NCBI GenBank assembly: GCA_002868945.1
Contig: PKTX01000071.1
Span: 1 to 36,704, forward strand
Length of the DNA stretch: 36,704 nt
Origin: Desulfobulbaceae bacterium
GTDB lineage: Bacteria > Desulfobacterota > Desulfobulbia > Desulfobulbales > SURF-16
Reading direction: 5' to 3'
Shown here: positions 15,423 through 36,704 of the stretch, one piece after another
How positions within the stretch are numbered: the stretch's first letter is position 1
Layout of the letters: each line of letters opens with the position of its first letter
Made by a program: the position numbers and the translations under genes
The notes under the pieces: generated by a model
What the model was told of the DNA's origin: nothing
Databases searched by the model: none
Seen by the model: the letters and a program-made list of their open reading frames with translations, nothing else

Positions 15423-16664
15423 ATGCAGTACGATTTTCTCGAACAAAGTACCCGTCTTCTTCGCGAGGCTGGCAGGATCTGCCAGATTGATCCCAATGTG
15501 ATGGCATTTCTTGCTGCACCGGCGCGAGTGGTGATCTTTCGCATCCCGTTGAAGATGGATGATGGCAGTTTTCGTGTCTTTGATGCGTACCGTGTGCGTT
15601 ACAACGATGCCCTGGGACCGACCCGTGATGGTACGCGCATTTCGGCCGATCTCGACCTGGGCGAGGTGAAATCGCTGGCATTGATCATGTCTATCAAACA
15701 CGCGGCTGGCCGCATACCGGCTGGCGGCGGCAAGGGTGGCGTGTCAGCCAACCCACGTGAGTTAAGCAAACGCGAGTTTGAGACGCTTTGCCGTACCTAT
15801 ATCCGTCAGCTGCGCCCCCGGGGGCATGCCTATGATGTACCCGGTGCTGATATTGGCACTGACCTGCAAAGCATGAGCTGGATGCTGGACGAGTATGAGT
15901 CGATTACCGGTTACCATGATCCTGCGGCGATAAACGATAAACCACCGATCCTCGGAGGCTCGCTGGGTGGCTATGAAGCCACCGGCCGCGGCGTGTTCGA
16001 CGTCTTCGAGGAAGCTGCAAAAGCAACCGGCTTTGAAATCAAAGATGCCAGTGTCGCTATCCAGGGTTTTGGCCAGGTCGGATCAGTGGCCGCCAGCATG
16101 TTCCATGAAGCCGGTTGCCGCGTCGTGGCGGTGAGTGATAGCCGTGGCGGCCTTTATGCAAAAGAGGGGCTGGATATTCCCGGCTTGCTGGCCCACAAAC
16201 AGGCCACGGGCAAAGTCGCGGACTTTGCTGATAGCCAACCATTGACCGGCCAGGACCTGCTGGAATGTGACTGCGACGTGCTGGTACCGGCGGCGGTGCA
16301 GGGAGTGATTACCGCGGATACTGCCTACCGGATCAAGGCGCAGATGCTGGTGGAAGCCGCCAATGCCCCGACGACGGTGGAAGCCGAGGCGATACTACTG
16401 GAAAGAGGTATTACCATCGTGCCGGATGTGCTGGCGAACGCCGGGAGTGTGCACCTGTGCCAGATGGAGCGCAGCCAGGGGCTTGCCGATAACTACTGGG
16501 ATATCGAGACAATTAACCACCTGCGCCATCAACGGCTGGTGGCCGGCTACCGCGCGGCAATGAATGCGGCTGCCAAGTACCAGTTAAAATCAGTCCGCCT
16601 GGGTGCCTGGATTAATGCCCTCAAACGGATTGAAGAAGCCATGCAGATGCGCGGCTGGTGCTAG
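15423..16664 (+). CDS. Glu/Leu/Phe/Val dehydrogenase (glutamate dehydrogenase type)
   Basis: This 413-residue enzyme interconverts an amino acid and its 2-oxo acid with NAD(P). The substrate-binding domain (about 1-175) shows Lys92, Lys104 in PAGGGKGG and Asp143 in DVPGADIGT. The Rossmann domain follows (VAIQGFGQVGSVAA at about 208-221) and the C-terminal part carries LVEAANAPTT and DVLANAGSV. Length fits the hexameric family; glutamate is the most likely substrate but is not proven. AAGGAG precedes the start. Codon choice looks different from neighbours such as bzaF, and repeats lie on both sides, which suggests acquisition. Its TAG stop is inside a dispersed repeat. Confidence 0.9.
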   Translation: MQYDFLEQSTRLLREAGRICQIDPNVMAFLAAPARVVIFRIPLKMDDGSFRVFDAYRVRYNDALGPTRDGTRISADLDLGEVKSLALIMSIKHAAGRIPAGGGKGGVSANPRELSKREFETLCRTYIRQLRPRGHAYDVPGADIGTDLQSMSWMLDEYESITGYHDPAAINDKPPILGGSLGGYEATGRGVFDVFEEAAKATGFEIKDASVAIQGFGQVGSVAASMFHEAGCRVVAVSDSRGGLYAKEGLDIPGLLAHKQATGKVADFADSQPLTGQDLLECDCDVLVPAAVQGVITADTAYRIKAQMLVEAANAPTTVEAEAILLERGITIVPDVLANAGSVHLCQMERSQGLADNYWDIETINHLRHQRLVAGYRAAMNAAAKYQLKSVRLGAWINALKRIEEAMQMRGWC

Positions 16665-16817
16665 TGCAGTATATCACTTAAAGTTTCGTATATTTATACA
16701 ACTCTGACTTTAACCACAAAGGCATTCTTCTTAATACCCCCTTGAGGGGTACAAAAACACGAAGAGCTTCCTGTTTTTATGTTTTTCTTGGTGCCTTCGT
16801 GTCTTGTGGTTCGAATG
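16661..16817 (+). repeat. Dispersed stop-codon repeat (family C), copy 2
   Basis: It starts CTAGTGCAGT at 16661, the same string that ends copy 1 at the window start in reverse. The first 50 bases differ at only a few positions. It then carries TTAACCACAAAGGCA at about 16711 and the complementary TGCCTTCGTGTCTTGTGGTT near 16792, with about 38 extra bases inside compared with copy 1. The dehydrogenase stop codon TAG (16662-16664) is part of it. Confidence 0.75.
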
Positions 16818-20130: not shown

Positions 20131-20348
20131 CAGCCTGTTGAAAAACTACTGCGCTAACTGATGCGGCGTCACAATTCGGCTTGAGCTAAGCAAGCAGAGC
20201 GAGACTCCGAAATGCTCCTAAACCACATGGAAACTGCACCCCAAGGGTACTTGGAGTGTCGCAGGCTCCCTTATCTCCTGCGGGCGCGCATTTTTTCGCC
20301 TCATTTTTCCTAGCCTCAGCTGCGCTCGCTACGTTTTTCAACGGGCTG
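20131..20348 (-). mobile_element. MITE-like element family A, copy 1 (inverted, with extra module)
   Basis: It is bounded by CAGCCTGTTGAAAAAC at 20131 and its partner GTTTTTCAACGGGCTG ending at 20348. Compared with copies 2 and 3 it lies in the opposite orientation. It is longer (218 bp) because its middle contains an extra segment around 20215-20280 that is also found in family B. The flanks ATAA and ACAA are an imperfect 4-bp duplication. No transposase is encoded. Confidence 0.85.
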
Positions 20349-20596: not shown

Positions 20597-20815
20597 GTGT
20601 CTGTCCAGAAATAGGTCATTTCGTACGAGATCAAGGACTGCGAGAAAAATAAGCGCGCCCTGAAAGAAGTGCCCTTGGGGTGCAGGCATATATTTGATAT
20701 CGGAGTCTCCACTTCGTTTCGCTTACCTCCGAGCATTATTTTTTGAGCATGACGCTGAGATCGGGCCGGTAAGCGAGTTTACGAGACTCCGAGAGGGCCA
20801 TTTCCGGACAGGCAC
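20597..20815. mobile_element. MITE-like element family B, copy 1
   Basis: The ends are GTGTCTGTCCAGAAAT (20597) and the complementary ATTTCCGGACAGGCAC ending at 20815. The flanking TATCTA (20591-20596) and TATCTG (20816-20821) look like a 6-bp target duplication with one change. It is 219 bp long and has no coding capacity for a transposase. Its interior has two partial inverted segments (CGGAGTCTC near 20701 and GAGACTCCG near 20783). Confidence 0.85.
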
Positions 20816-21141: not shown

Positions 21142-21281
21142 CAGCCCGTTGAAAAAGGTAGCGAGCGCAGCTGAGGCTAGGAAAAATACGGCGAAAAAGC
21201 GCAGTTTACAGGTAGTAAATGAGCATTTTGAGCCGAATTTTGACGCCGCATCTGCCAGCGCAGTAGTTTTTCAACAGGCTG
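21142..21281 (+). mobile_element. MITE-like element family A, copy 2
   Basis: The element runs from CAGCCCGTTGAAAAA at 21142 to TTTTTCAACAGGCTG ending at 21281 (140 bp) and is flanked by a perfect 4-bp duplication, CTAA (21138-21141 and 21282-21285). It is the cleanest copy in the window. Its internal sequence is nearly the same as copy 3. It ends 26 bases before the rdgB start codon. Confidence 0.92.
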
Positions 21282-23319: not shown

Positions 23320-24423
23320 TTATCCTGCACGCACTTCCTCCAGCACCTGGGCCAGGGTGGCGACCAAACGTCTGTTCTCCACCTCGGTCCCCACTGTTAT
23401 TCTGATATAGGAATCATAGCCATAGGCAGCCATGGGCCGCACGATGACGCCGCGCAGCAGCATGCCTTCATAGATATCCTTGCAGTTACAGGCCACATCC
23501 ACCAGGAAAAAATTGGTCTGGGTGGGAAAGACATGGCAGCCCAGTCTGCTGATCTCCGCACTGAGCCAGGCGATACCGGTGCGGCTCATGGTCAGGGTCT
23601 GCTGATAATGATCATCATCCGTCAAGGCAGCCAAGGCACCCACCTGGGCCAACTCATTGACGTTAAAGGGCTGGCGCACCCGGTGCAGATAGGAGGCGAT
23701 CTCGGCATGCATGATACCATAGCCAACGCGCAGACCGGCAATACCATAGGCCTTGGAAAAGGTGCGCAGCCCCACCACCGCAGTGCTGCCGTGCAGATAG
23801 TGCCGCACGTCAAGACGCAGCGCCTCATCGACAAAATCGACATACGCCTCATCCAGCACAACGATCACCGTCTCCGGCACCTGTGCCAGAAAGGCCTCAA
23901 AGGTGGCCTTATCAAAGACCGTGCCAGTGGGATTGTTCGGGTTGTCCAGAAAGATCAGTCGCGTTCGGGGCGTGATCCTGGCGGCAATGGTGTCAAGGTC
24001 ATGCCTCATATCCTTCAGGGGCACGACGATATTGCAGCCTCCCTGGGCCTGCACCATGGTCTGGTAGACGAGAAAGGAGGGCAGACTGCTGATCACCTCG
24101 TCACCGGGGGCCACAAAGGCGCGCACCAGGAAATCAATGATCTCATTGGAGCCGTTGCCGAAGACGAGTTCGTCCCGGGCCACGCCCAGCCTGGCGGCCA
24201 CGGCCTCGGCCAGGTAGTAGCAGCTGCCGTCCGGGTAGCGGTGCAGGTTATGGAGATTGGCGGCAATGGCGGCCACTGCCTTGGCCGACGGCCCCAGGGA
24301 ATTTTCATTGGATGCCATTTTGATGGAATCGGTCACCCCGTACTGCCGCTCCAGCTCCTTCAAGGGCTTCCCGGGCGGATAGGGAATAAGGTTCTTTATA
24401 TTATCACTGACGTTGAGCTTCAT
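23320..24423 (-). CDS. hisC: Histidinol-phosphate aminotransferase
   Basis: HisC transfers the amino group of glutamate to imidazole acetol phosphate in histidine synthesis, using PLP. The 367-residue class I/II aminotransferase shows PPGKPLKELERQYG at its N-terminus, ASNENSLGPS, the PLP pocket FLDNPNNPTGT, VVLDEAYVDF, the Schiff-base lysine in TFSKAYGIAGLRVGYG, and a C-terminal YIRITVGTEVENRRL. No other his genes are nearby; it is embedded between gatA and cmk. About 160 bp of its 5' coding part (24222-24384) recur inside a mobile element at 33234-33396. Confidence 0.95.
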   Translation of the reverse strand: MKLNVSDNIKNLIPYPPGKPLKELERQYGVTDSIKMASNENSLGPSAKAVAAIAANLHNLHRYPDGSCYYLAEAVAARLGVARDELVFGNGSNEIIDFLVRAFVAPGDEVISSLPSFLVYQTMVQAQGGCNIVVPLKDMRHDLDTIAARITPRTRLIFLDNPNNPTGTVFDKATFEAFLAQVPETVIVVLDEAYVDFVDEALRLDVRHYLHGSTAVVGLRTFSKAYGIAGLRVGYGIMHAEIASYLHRVRQPFNVNELAQVGALAALTDDDHYQQTLTMSRTGIAWLSAEISRLGCHVFPTQTNFFLVDVACNCKDIYEGMLLRGVIVRPMAAYGYDSYIRITVGTEVENRRLVATLAQVLEEVRAG

Positions 24424-30473: not shown

Positions 30474-30850
30474 AGATAGACACCCTTTGCAGGAGTTAAG
30501 TGATTCAAATATTGCTCCAATCGGCCTTACATAAAAAGCTAAAATCCATGGTAACGCTAGGAAAAATTCTTACCTGGCACCACTTTTTTCAGCCGACAGC
30601 TGCTGTCGCAGCCATCGCCTACCCAAAAAAAAGAGCTTTTCTTGTTCGTTGGCCGCTAAACCAGGCGCGTCCCGGCCCTGCCGGGGAGGAGCCCGTCCGC
30701 CTGCGTCAAGCCGACCTGTTTCCTGCTTGCAATTCCACCCCACTCCCCCTATACTGTTTTACTGTTCGTCCACAACGCACTGTTTTCATGACAAAATCGC
30801 CACCAAGATGCCAAGCCGGGCACCTATTCCCTTTTCGACCGATATCAGAT
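30474..30850. other. Divergent intergenic region between the HDOD and kinase genes
   Basis: It holds a good plus-strand sigma-70 promoter (entry at 30727). Short palindromes are GCCGACAGCTGCTGTCGC near 30593 (CGACAGCTGCTGTCG is a near-perfect dyad) and CCGGCCCTGCCGG near 30673. The dyad could be an operator shared by the two genes. An open frame across this region is not credible as coding because it precedes the promoter. Confidence 0.45.
30727..30755 (+). promoter_or_regulatory. Sigma-70 promoter for the hybrid kinase
   Basis: TTGCAA (30727-30732), a 17-base spacer and TATACT (30750-30755) make the best promoter match seen in the window. Transcription should begin near 30762. Start codons upstream of this point can therefore be set aside. 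Confidence 0.65.
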
Positions 30851-33091
30851 ATGAGTACCAGAGCAAAGGTTATTACAGCGGTAATGGTGGTTATCCTGAC
30901 CATATGTGCCATCTTCCTTCTGCTGCTCTCCAGACAACATCAGCACTATCTGGAGAAGATTATCACCACCCAGTCGGAAAGCGCCAACACCGTGGCCGAG
31001 GCCATTATCCAACAGGTAAGCAGCAACTACGCCCTGCGCATCCACGGCTTTGTCAACCACAAGGCATCCAGATCCAAAGAGGCCCTGGTCAGGGCCTTTG
31101 CCGAACGAGATCGCCGCCGGCTCCAGGAACTGAGCGAGCCCTTCTTCGAGATTCTCAAGAATGAAAACCCCTACTTTTCCACCCTGGGTTGGATCCTGCC
31201 CGACAATACCGCCTTTCTGCGCGTCCATGCCCCTGACAACTTCGGCCAGAATGTCGGCACAATGCGGCCGGACGTGGCGGCAGTCAACAAAGAGAGACGA
31301 CAACAGGCCGGCTTTACCACCGGTTATGTCGGCCTGCAATACCGGGTGGTGCATCCCGTTTTTTTCAACGATACCTACCTCGGCGCCACCCAATTCGGCA
31401 TCAAGGGCACGGTCCTGCTTGACACCCTGAGCAAGCAGCTGGGCACCGCCGTCTGCCTGGCCATGCCCCTCAGTGAATATAACACCATCCTGCCGGAATA
31501 CCGGAAGGGACTAATTGTTGGCTCCAGCCACGCCATCAGTGCCTCCGACCCTGCCACATTCAAACCCTTCCTGGCGGAAATAGACTGGCAAAAGGAGCGG
31601 CAGACCCTTACCCTGAAGGGGCAAAGCTATGCCCTCTGCCGGGTAAGTTCCCTCACCAACTTCCGGGGCGATGAGCTGGCCCATCTCTTTGTTGCCCTGG
31701 ACATTACCAATGAACTGCAGCAAGGCCGCTCCTTTCTGCTGACCGCCTTTTGGCTCAGCGCCCTTTTAAGCGGCATCTCCTTTATCATCCTCTACGTAAG
31801 CTACGGCGCCCTGGTGGAGAAAATCGTCGGCCTCAACCTCTCCCTGGCCCGCACCAATCGCCGCCTGGAAGAAAAGGTACGGCAACGAACCGAGAAACTC
31901 TTTACGGAGATGGAGGAGAAGAAAAAAACCGAGGCCAGGCTACAGAAGGCGGAAAAGATGGAGGCCATCGGCCTGATGGCAGGCGGCGTCGCCCATGATC
32001 TCAACAACATCCTCTCCGGCGTGGTCAACTATCCGGAACTGCTGCTCATGAAGCTGCCCGACGGGAGCGAACTGCGCGCCCCCATTACCGCCATCCATGA
32101 ATCAGGCCTGCGCGCCGCAGCCGTGGTTGACGATCTGCTCACTGTGGCGCGCAGTGCCGCCAAGGTCCGCGAGATTGCCGATATCAACATCATCATCCAT
32201 GAATATCTCGCCTCCCTGGAGGGCCAAAAACTGTTGACCCGCTATCCCGATGTTCACATAAAAACCCGCCTGGCGCCGGATCTTTGCAACATCTCCTGTT
32301 CCCCGGTGCATATCCGCAAATGTCTGATGAATCTGGTTATTAATGCGGCCGAGGCCCTGCAGGATTCAGGCACCATTGTCATCAGCACGGAAAATCGCAG
32401 CTTCAGCGCCGCAGAGACGCAGGGAGATATCAAGGCCGGCAACTATGTCGCCCTGGTGGTGACGGATAACGGGCCGGGCATTGCCGCCGAGGACCTGGAT
32501 CACATCTTTGAACCTTTTTATACAAAGAAAAAGATGGGGCGCAGCGGTTCAGGCATTGGCCTGGCCGTGGTCTGGAACGCCGTGCAGGACCATAACGGTT
32601 TCATCCGGGTACAAAGCAGCAGCGGAAACGGCACATCCTTCACCCTGCTCTTTCCCGCCACCACACTGCAGCAGGCCACCCTGGACGACATTAAGGTGAA
32701 TATGGCCAACCTGCAGGGCAATGGTGAAAAGATCCTGGTGGTGGACGACGAGCCCCACCAGCGCGAAATCGCCTCCCAGGCCCTCACCCTGCTGGGCTAC
32801 CAGGTGACCTCCCTGAGCTCTGGGGAAAAGGCTGTCCGCTATATGGCAAACCATGAAGCGGACCTGATCCTGCTTGACATGCTGATGGAACCGGGCATAA
32901 ACGGCCGCCGAACCTATGAGGAAATCCTCAAACGCCATCCGGGCCAGAAGGCGGTGATCGCCAGTGGTTTTTCCGAAAGCGACGAGGTAAAAAAGGCGGC
33001 CCGACTCGGCGCCGGCGGCTTTATCAAAAAACCGTATACCCTTGAAGAGCTGGCCGTGGCCGTCAAAAGCGAGCTGCAGAGAGACATCTGA
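30851..33091 (+). CDS. Transmembrane hybrid histidine kinase with dCache-type sensor and C-terminal receiver
   Basis: The 746-residue protein has a first membrane helix at about 8-26 and a periplasmic sensor at about 30-290 resembling dCache_3 (FLRVHAPDNFGQNVGTMRP, YRVVHPVFFNDTYLGATQFG). A second helix at about 294-317 is followed by a coiled coil at 328-368. The kinase core has His382 in GGVAHDLNNILSG, an N-box (CLMNLVINAAEAL) and G-boxes (DNGPGIA, GSGIGLAVV). A C-terminal receiver begins at ILVVDDEPHQRE with the acceptor Asp in LILLDMLME. The start at 30851 places the helix at the N-terminus; an ATG at 30788 is the alternative. No separate regulator is adjacent. A mobile element inserted 9 bases after its stop. 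Confidence 0.9.
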   Translation: MSTRAKVITAVMVVILTICAIFLLLLSRQHQHYLEKIITTQSESANTVAEAIIQQVSSNYALRIHGFVNHKASRSKEALVRAFAERDRRRLQELSEPFFEILKNENPYFSTLGWILPDNTAFLRVHAPDNFGQNVGTMRPDVAAVNKERRQQAGFTTGYVGLQYRVVHPVFFNDTYLGATQFGIKGTVLLDTLSKQLGTAVCLAMPLSEYNTILPEYRKGLIVGSSHAISASDPATFKPFLAEIDWQKERQTLTLKGQSYALCRVSSLTNFRGDELAHLFVALDITNELQQGRSFLLTAFWLSALLSGISFIILYVSYGALVEKIVGLNLSLARTNRRLEEKVRQRTEKLFTEMEEKKKTEARLQKAEKMEAIGLMAGGVAHDLNNILSGVVNYPELLLMKLPDGSELRAPITAIHESGLRAAAVVDDLLTVARSAAKVREIADINIIIHEYLASLEGQKLLTRYPDVHIKTRLAPDLCNISCSPVHIRKCLMNLVINAAEALQDSGTIVISTENRSFSAAETQGDIKAGNYVALVVTDNGPGIAAEDLDHIFEPFYTKKKMGRSGSGIGLAVVWNAVQDHNGFIRVQSSSGNGTSFTLLFPATTLQQATLDDIKVNMANLQGNGEKILVVDDEPHQREIASQALTLLGYQVTSLSSGEKAVRYMANHEADLILLDMLMEPGINGRRTYEEILKRHPGQKAVIASGFSESDEVKKAARLGAGGFIKKPYTLEELAVAVKSELQRDI

Positions 33092-33100
33092 GCCCCTTTA

Positions 33101-33478
33101 GTGCCTGTCCAGAAATGAGTCATTTCGGAGTCAAAGCTTCGCTCACTTACCTGTTCGAGATCATGGAGCATAGGGAAATAAAAAGCGCCCCCTGAAAGAG
33201 GTAAGGGAGCCTGCGACACTCCGGGTGCCCTCGAGCTGCCGTCCGGGTAGCGGTGCAGGTTCTGCAGATTGGCGGCAATGACGGCCACTGCCTTGGCCGA
33301 CGGCCCCAGGGAATTCTCATGGGATGCCATTTTGATGGAATCGGTCACCCCGTACTGCCGCTCCAGCTCCTTCAAGGGCTTCCCGGGCGGATGGGGCAGC
33401 ATATTGAGCATATGTAAGCACTCTTATTTTCCGTGGCGACACAGAGATCGGCCAAGAGGGCCATTTCTGGAGAGGCAC
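33101..33478. mobile_element. MITE-like element family B, copy 2, carrying a captured hisC fragment
   Basis: The ends GTGCCTGTCCAGAAATG (33101) and CATTTCTGGAGAGGCAC (ending 33478) are complementary with one mismatch in 17. They are flanked by a perfect 6-bp duplication, CCTTTA (33095-33100 and 33479-33484). The 378-bp interior shares modules with the copy at 20597 and family A copy 1. In addition it holds about 160 bp of hisC coding sequence that the other copy lacks. No transposase is encoded, so movement would need one supplied in trans. It lies between the hybrid kinase and trmJ stops. Confidence 0.92.
33234..33411 (-). pseudogene. hisC 5' fragment inside a mobile element
   Basis: Between 33234 and 33396 the sequence aligns without gaps to 24222-24384 of the intact hisC, with about five differences in the first 160 bases. 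On the minus strand it encodes PPGKPLKELERQYGVTDSIK and LHRYPDG as in HisC, but with ASHENS in place of ASNENS. The bases before it (encoding LNMLPH instead of KNLIPY) are diverged yet still resemble an HisC N-terminus. It cannot be functional: only about 58 codons remain and the frame then runs into element sequence. Confidence 0.92.
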
Positions 33479-33507
33479 CCTTTAAGCCCCTCTTACCTTA
33501 CCGACCT

Positions 33508-34281
33508 TCAGGAATCTTCCCTGTCCGGTCTGCCGGCGGCCAGCCAACGTACCTGCCGACAGATTCCCCGGATATACTTGACCTCCCGGGCCCGCAGGCC
33601 GATCCGGTTAAAAAAGTGGCTGAGATTATGACGCCACTGACCCAGATCCGTTTCCTTGAGATAGCCGATGGCGCGCAGACTCTCTTCAAGTTCGTCGTAG
33701 AGGGCGGCCAAGACCCGTGACGAAGCCAGGGTGGGTGTGGCCGGCGGCTTACCGGTCGTGGCCATCAGAGTACCGAACAGCTCATAACAGATAACCCCCA
33801 CGGCCTGGGCCAGATTGAGGGAGGCAAAATCAGCCGTGGGGATGGTCACCGTGGCATTACACAGTTCAATTTCACTATTACTCAAGCCCTGATTCTCCGG
33901 ACCAAAGACCAGAGCCACTCGATTATGGGCCAGCTTGGGCAGGAGGTCCTCCACCATGTGCCGCGGATTTTCCAGAAAAAAACGCCGCCTGCCCTGGCGG
34001 GCCGTGGTACCCACCACCCAGCTGCAGGGCGCCACGGCCTCGGCCAGAGTGGGGACCTGAAGCAAGCCATCGATCAGCTCCTTGGCATGGTGGGTGGCCA
34101 GTTTGGCCATGGCCGCTTGTTCCGGCAATTCATCGGCCACCACCACCAACTGCCGGATCCCCATATTATGAGCGACACGGGCCGCCGCCCCGACGTTTTC
34201 GCCATACTTGGGACGCACCAGCACCAGCCGTACGCCGGCCAGCTGCTCCTTAACCGCCTCTAATTTTTTATGAACACCCAC
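33508..34281 (-). CDS. trmJ: tRNA (cytidine/uridine-2'-O-)-methyltransferase TrmJ
   Basis: TrmJ 2'-O-methylates position 32 of tRNAs using SAM. The 257-residue SPOUT-fold protein has the N-terminal LVLVRPKYGENVGAAARVAHNMG, then the knot-forming blocks LVFGPENQGLSNSE and IPTADFASLNLAQAVGVICYEL. A C-terminal helical region of about 80 residues matches the TrmJ dimerisation extension. I chose a GTG start at 34281, preceded by AGGAAAG; a TTG at 34308 would add nine residues. It lies immediately downstream of rnr on the same strand, so the two RNA-processing genes are probably co-transcribed. Confidence 0.92.
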   Translation of the reverse strand: MGVHKKLEAVKEQLAGVRLVLVRPKYGENVGAAARVAHNMGIRQLVVVADELPEQAAMAKLATHHAKELIDGLLQVPTLAEAVAPCSWVVGTTARQGRRRFFLENPRHMVEDLLPKLAHNRVALVFGPENQGLSNSEIELCNATVTIPTADFASLNLAQAVGVICYELFGTLMATTGKPPATPTLASSRVLAALYDELEESLRAIGYLKETDLGQWRHNLSHFFNRIGLRAREVKYIRGICRQVRWLAAGRPDREDS

Positions 34282-34334
34282 GCTGATTCTTTCCTGGTTG
34301 CAGTTCAAAAAAATACCGCCGTCTCCCCGGCTGC

Positions 34335-36546: not shown

Positions 36547-36704
36547 CAGCCCGTTGAAAAACGTAGCGAGCGTAGCTGAGGCTAGAAAAAATGAGGCGAA
36601 AAAGCGCAGTTTACATGGGTAAATGAGCATTTTGAGCCGAATTTTGACGACGCATCAGTAGATAGCGAACGAAGAGAGACCTTCGAGCGCAGTAGTTTTT
36701 CAAC
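36547..36704 (+). mobile_element. MITE-like element family A, copy 3 (cut by window end)
   Basis: It begins CAGCCCGTTGAAAAACG at 36547 and runs to TTTTTCAAC at the last base, where the expected AGGCTG is cut off by the window end. Its interior matches copy 2 closely apart from about 25 extra bases near 36655-36685. It is inserted upstream of rnr. Confidence 0.9.

Follow-up and report, generated by a model that had tools for sequence, protein, structure and literature searches.

The locus at 33101-33478 of the window (the whole stretch of DNA that was analysed, 36,704 nucleotides) raises the question of how a piece of hisC came to lie between the ends of a transposase-less element, and whether the product should be regarded as a bacterial Pack-MITE, as the first-pass annotation had proposed. 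In plants, the capture of gene fragments by MITEs is well documented, and the elements involved are known as Pack-MITEs or Pack-MULEs.

A MITE between two convergent genes

The coordinates of the features are collected in Table 1. Terminal inverted repeats, a target-site duplication, and many dispersed copies without a transposase identify the element as a MITE. Its description as a non-autonomous element with near-perfect 17-bp ends, a perfect 6-bp duplication, and captured host gene DNA holds on alignment: the ends pair at 16 of 17 positions with one mismatch, and the same ends border the sister element. The ends belong to family A; for the interior, the best resemblance is to family B and to a single close relative, C57:84360-84555. 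The kinase gene stops 3 bp short of the left duplication.

Table 1. Positions of the features in the window and of the autonomous elements in related genomes
Feature	Position	Strand	Remarks
MITE, family A (ISNCY-type ends)	33101..33478		378 bp, transposase-less
Left target-site duplication CCTTTA	33095..33100		identical to 33479-33484
Right target-site duplication CCTTTA	33479..33484		6/6 versus left copy
Left terminal inverted repeat GTGCCTGTCCAGAAATG	33101..33117	+
Right terminal inverted repeat GTGCCTCTCCAGAAATG	33462..33478	-
Captured hisC piece, codons 14-68	33234..33396	-	157/163 versus 24222-24384
Intact hisC, 367 aa, donor of the piece	23320..24423	-	TIGR01141 above cutoff
Hybrid sensor histidine kinase gene	30500..33091	+	Pfam HisKA, HATPase_c, Response_reg
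TrmJ/YjtD-type RNA methyltransferase gene, convergent neighbour	33508..34308	-	TIGR00050 above cutoff
Sister family A MITE without hisC	20597..20815		duplication TATCTA/TATCTG, 5/6
Family C members	20131-20348, 21142-21281, 36547-36704		the last reaches the contig end
Autonomous ISNCY copy	L208 591-2290		duplication TAGCTA
Autonomous ISNCY copy	L220 608-2305		duplication TAGTTA
Further autonomous ISNCY copies	L212, L210		matching ends

The empty site that relatives had been expected to reveal is present in two genomes of the same genus (G001 and G003, about 74-79% DNA identity), in which the convergent kinase and trmJ-like genes occur without the element and the gap between the aligned parts of the gene pair measures 47-76 bp. 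A third genome, G002, was left out of this comparison, as one flank alone aligned well. In all three genomes hisC lies 7-9 kb from the gene pair, and the donor was therefore already nearby.

An open frame of 165 aa (32914-33411, minus strand) begins within the MITE, crosses the captured hisC DNA, and extends into sequence antisense to the kinase gene. A Pfam search with this frame returned no match, and it is probably not expressed.

Copies across the genome and the order

In the 3.7-Mb genome, a search for the family end pattern with at most 2 mismatches gave 129 matches on the forward strand and 124 on the reverse, compared with 2 forward and 0 reverse for a reversed-pattern control, which places the family ends far above chance. 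The stretches read (2.08 Mb, 56% of the genome) contain 67 family A elements, with lengths of 37-378 bp. The 6-bp duplication is perfect in 40 of these and matches at five of six positions in a further 21, with the consensus TANNTA. Of 97 genomes of the order, 25 have exact family A ends, which for the most part flank elements about 140-260 bp long that have duplications. The smallest copies, of 37 bp, consist of two ends and a 5-bp loop (L050 3783-3819, L078 17904-17940, and others); several have perfect 6-bp duplications, and the type is also present in G026.

When families A and B are taken together, a foreign interior was found in one of 126 genuine copies from the same 56% of the genome, namely that at 33101-33478, and no other capture was seen among the remaining 125. 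This null result limits the frequency of capture. A family B look-alike among the 127 elements collected (L176 15606; 240 bp, 3/4 duplication) has no family interior and was rejected as a chance pairing. No second hisC-bearing MITE was found in the genome by BLAST or in the relatives searched.

Many contigs of this genome (for example C14, C39, C48, C51, and C54) end about 100 bp within a MITE. Because MITEs sit at so many contig ends, the assembly does break at these repeats, and an assembly error could in principle have joined hisC into one of them. The site at issue, however, is internal to its contig and holds a unique MITE variant with a perfect duplication, and six differences from hisC are private to the copy. 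An artefact is thus scarcely credible.

The partner insertion sequence

The lead to a partner was an unpaired end in a related genome, which pointed to a broken ISNCY-type transposase gene. A search with this gene detected ISNCY-type transposase genes in 18 of 194 genomes, including intact autonomous copies of 1.7 kb with ends such as GTGTCTGTCCGCGAAA and GTGTCTGTCCATAAAT. Their 6-bp TANNTA duplications (TAGCTA, TAGTTA, TAACTA, and TACCTA) are the same as those of the MITEs. The hisC-bearing element resembles the ISNCY family (NCBIfam NF033593) in its GTGTCTGTCC..AAA ends and in duplication length, as an ISNCY-derived MITE should, but differs from the autonomous elements in having no transposase and in its added modules and hisC interior.

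An autonomous insertion sequence with the ends and 6-bp duplications of the MITEs is therefore found in relatives; in the window's own genome (G000) no ISNCY transposase match was obtained at E <= 1e-20, although assembly gaps could hide one. With no such match, in an assembly broken at many MITEs, the MITEs of this genome look orphaned. A cognate transposase in the same genome is expected of a mobile population but is not strictly defining. Three DDE_Tnp_1 matches in this genome were considered as the autonomous partner and rejected on the basis of ends that do not match. The rve profile also has three matches in this genome.

The captured fragment and its donor

The hisC match, put by eye at about 160 bp and 97% identity, is gapless and 96% identical over 163 bp (E ~1e-71). 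Piece and gene have the same chromosomal direction and lie 9 kb apart. A whole-genome BLAST search with the piece matched the element and hisC alone.

Six differences separate the copy from the gene: Y15H, N39H, E40E, A52V, L57L, and H58Q. At the sites of Y15, N39, and A52, the gene's base is present in the relatives whose hisC aligns over the region; at H58, the base of the copy yields Gln, in contrast to the His codon of the gene and of most relatives. The synonymous sites E40E and L57L are ambiguous as to which sequence changed. Of the six differences, at least four thus arose in the MITE copy rather than in the gene. The hisC genes of the nearest relatives reach only about 79-82% identity. 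The comparison indicates that the copy derives from the resident hisC, 9 kb away, and has since decayed. The copy is proposed to be a neutral relic now.

The alternative raised previously, that a related or divergent hisC allele was the donor, conflicts with the genome BLAST result and the polarity of the changes. It also drew on the bases at the hisC-5' side of the fragment, GCAGCATATTGAGCATATG, which had been taken for a HisC-like variant; these are ordinary interior of this MITE lineage, seen in a relative without hisC.

The retained fragment could alternatively serve as a functional RNA. The kinase gene is directed into the element, where the hisC piece has the antisense orientation, and read-through from this gene would yield RNA complementary to the 5' part of the hisC mRNA. 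A scan of 33000-33600 for sigma-70-like promoters was nevertheless negative, the copy drifts at conserved sites, and the hisC-bearing element was seen in this genome alone, all of which make such a role very improbable.

Insertion point and mode of capture

The closest hisC-free family member, C57:84360-84555, aligns along the whole element except for two insertions. The first is a 26-bp module on the left, at a place where family B copies likewise bear a module. The second is one clean block of hisC, with an insertion point at CCCTTGGGCT|GCAGCATATTG; its length relative to the hisC-free relative is 158 bp, and the hisC match spans 163 bp. At the left junction, hisC and MITE share the 5-bp microhomology GCTGC, and at the right junction they share one G. 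These junctions are read against the closest relative, which need not be the exact parent MITE, and may include filler or lost bases. The insertion point falls in the crown of the hairpin predicted for the relative, at the border of two small hairpins. The exact junction had no match in GTDB genome contigs, a collection from which the records nearest to the window's genome may be missing.

Based on these data, a simple model would suggest a one-off event in a resident MITE. An ISNCY-family transposase acting in trans would have inserted the MITE between the sensor kinase and trmJ-like genes, creating the CCTTTA duplication. Later, in the course of replication or repair, a copy of about 160 bp from the resident hisC, 9 kb off and in the same direction, would have entered the crown of the MITE hairpin by two microhomology-assisted template switches, at GCTGC and at a single G. 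The target site is 8-9 kb from hisC, and the chance of a donor within about 9 kb in a 3.7-Mb genome is ~0.005. This proximity and the clean insertion with its flanking microhomology make a local template switch more likely than capture linked to transposition. We assign a probability of roughly 0.6 to a local microhomology template switch of this kind, with the copy persisting as a neutral relic.

Capture probably took place in situ, and the order of events, with capture later than the landing of the MITE, is inferred, as is the template switch itself. It is important to note that the duplication gives no date for the capture: had hisC DNA been acquired first and the MITE then hopped over a short range, the anatomy would be the same. 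Moreover, a single case cannot establish a mechanism. As the element has other modular changes, an exchange process specific to these MITEs may also be considered.

In a true Pack-MITE, hisC DNA would have been captured during transposition or repair of an excision gap, and the hisC-bearing form would then have transposed to this site. The perfect duplication and the two intact ends around the hisC piece are consistent with this sequence of events, as are the large size of the family and the identification of an autonomous IS type. Yet the hisC-bearing form is single-copy, none of the other copies among the 126 carries host DNA, no ISNCY transposase was found in this genome, and a donor just 9 kb away is not predicted by transposition unless hops are local. 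We therefore consider this history unlikely.

Comparison with known systems

The capture of hisC DNA is real, the element has the anatomy of a Pack-MITE, and the type of its partner is known. Like plant Pack-MITEs and Pack-MULEs, it lacks a transposase and has inverted ends and a target duplication that enclose part of a host gene (hisC codons 14-68). It differs from them in being a single bacterial copy with its donor 9 kb off, and in that no amplification or later movement is evident: there is one hisC copy of this kind in the genome and none in the relatives searched. The name "bacterial Pack-MITE" is therefore apt for the anatomy and not for the spreading that it implies. With neither a second hisC copy nor a partner transposase found in the genome, nothing indicates that the captured piece was ever mobilised, and the claim that the element spreads or reshuffles coding pieces is unsupported. 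A literature search for Pack-MITE with bacteria and insertion sequence gave no match.

Transposase-less bacterial elements that carry other DNA include a qnrS2 mobile insertion cassette and its MITE (PMC5444012) and the TIME-COMP elements, in which other DNA is carried between transposon ends (PMC4133298). Mobile insertion cassettes and mosaic TIME elements carry whole genes or composite segments, whereas the element described here holds an internal gene fragment without evident function. Correia, ERIC, and RUP elements are small hairpin MITEs (reviewed in PMC2229807) with inverted ends, a duplication, and many mostly intergenic copies; the hisC MITE is like them in being a small hairpin element with inverted ends, a duplication, and many copies. 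In the passages of the review considered here, it is MITE sequence that has become fused into genes, and not pieces of host genes that lie within MITEs. The present locus, for which the donor and the insertion point are known and decay is visible, is a clean bacterial example and thus demonstrates that capture can happen.

Interior modules common to different MITE families

The ends of families A, B, and C are unrelated, and yet all three contain the same internal hairpin modules. Family B has the ends GGGTATCTTGAATAATT and a 4-bp duplication; family C has the ends CAGCCCGTTGAAAAA and, by inspection, a 4-bp duplication, and accounts for 43 end pairs in the scanned part of the genome. This sharing is compatible with a regular exchange of interiors among the three families, by recombination or by template switching between hairpins, of which the hisC piece would be an accidental product. 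Unrelated ends with 6- or 4-bp duplications around the same modules fit such a scheme, and so does the hisC element itself, with its family A ends and family-B-like interior. The sharing could, on the other hand, be explained by old common ancestry with swapped ends or by independent insertion of small modules, and we regard regular exchange as possible but somewhat doubtful; it may overlap with the local template switch preferred here. That exchange among differently ended families is active, shuffling modules and occasionally copying host gene pieces, seems less probable still. If true, it would be a bacterial counterpart of Pack-MITE formation. More generally, the modules common to families with unrelated ends offer a concrete system for asking how the interiors of bacterial MITEs are exchanged.

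A palindromic module of 23-26 bp, GGTAAGsGAG...GACTCC, has 228 matches in the stretches read; it occurs in all three families, at several positions and at times in tandem, and may be a mobile unit in its own right. At L065 2010-2450, a family C MITE contains an inserted family A MITE with the duplication TATCTA. Finally, the window contains two pairs of inverted-repeat arms (1-110 and 16661-16805) of 55 and 64 bp with ~90% identity, which lie 16.6 kb apart and begin AAGACACGAAGGCACAAAG.
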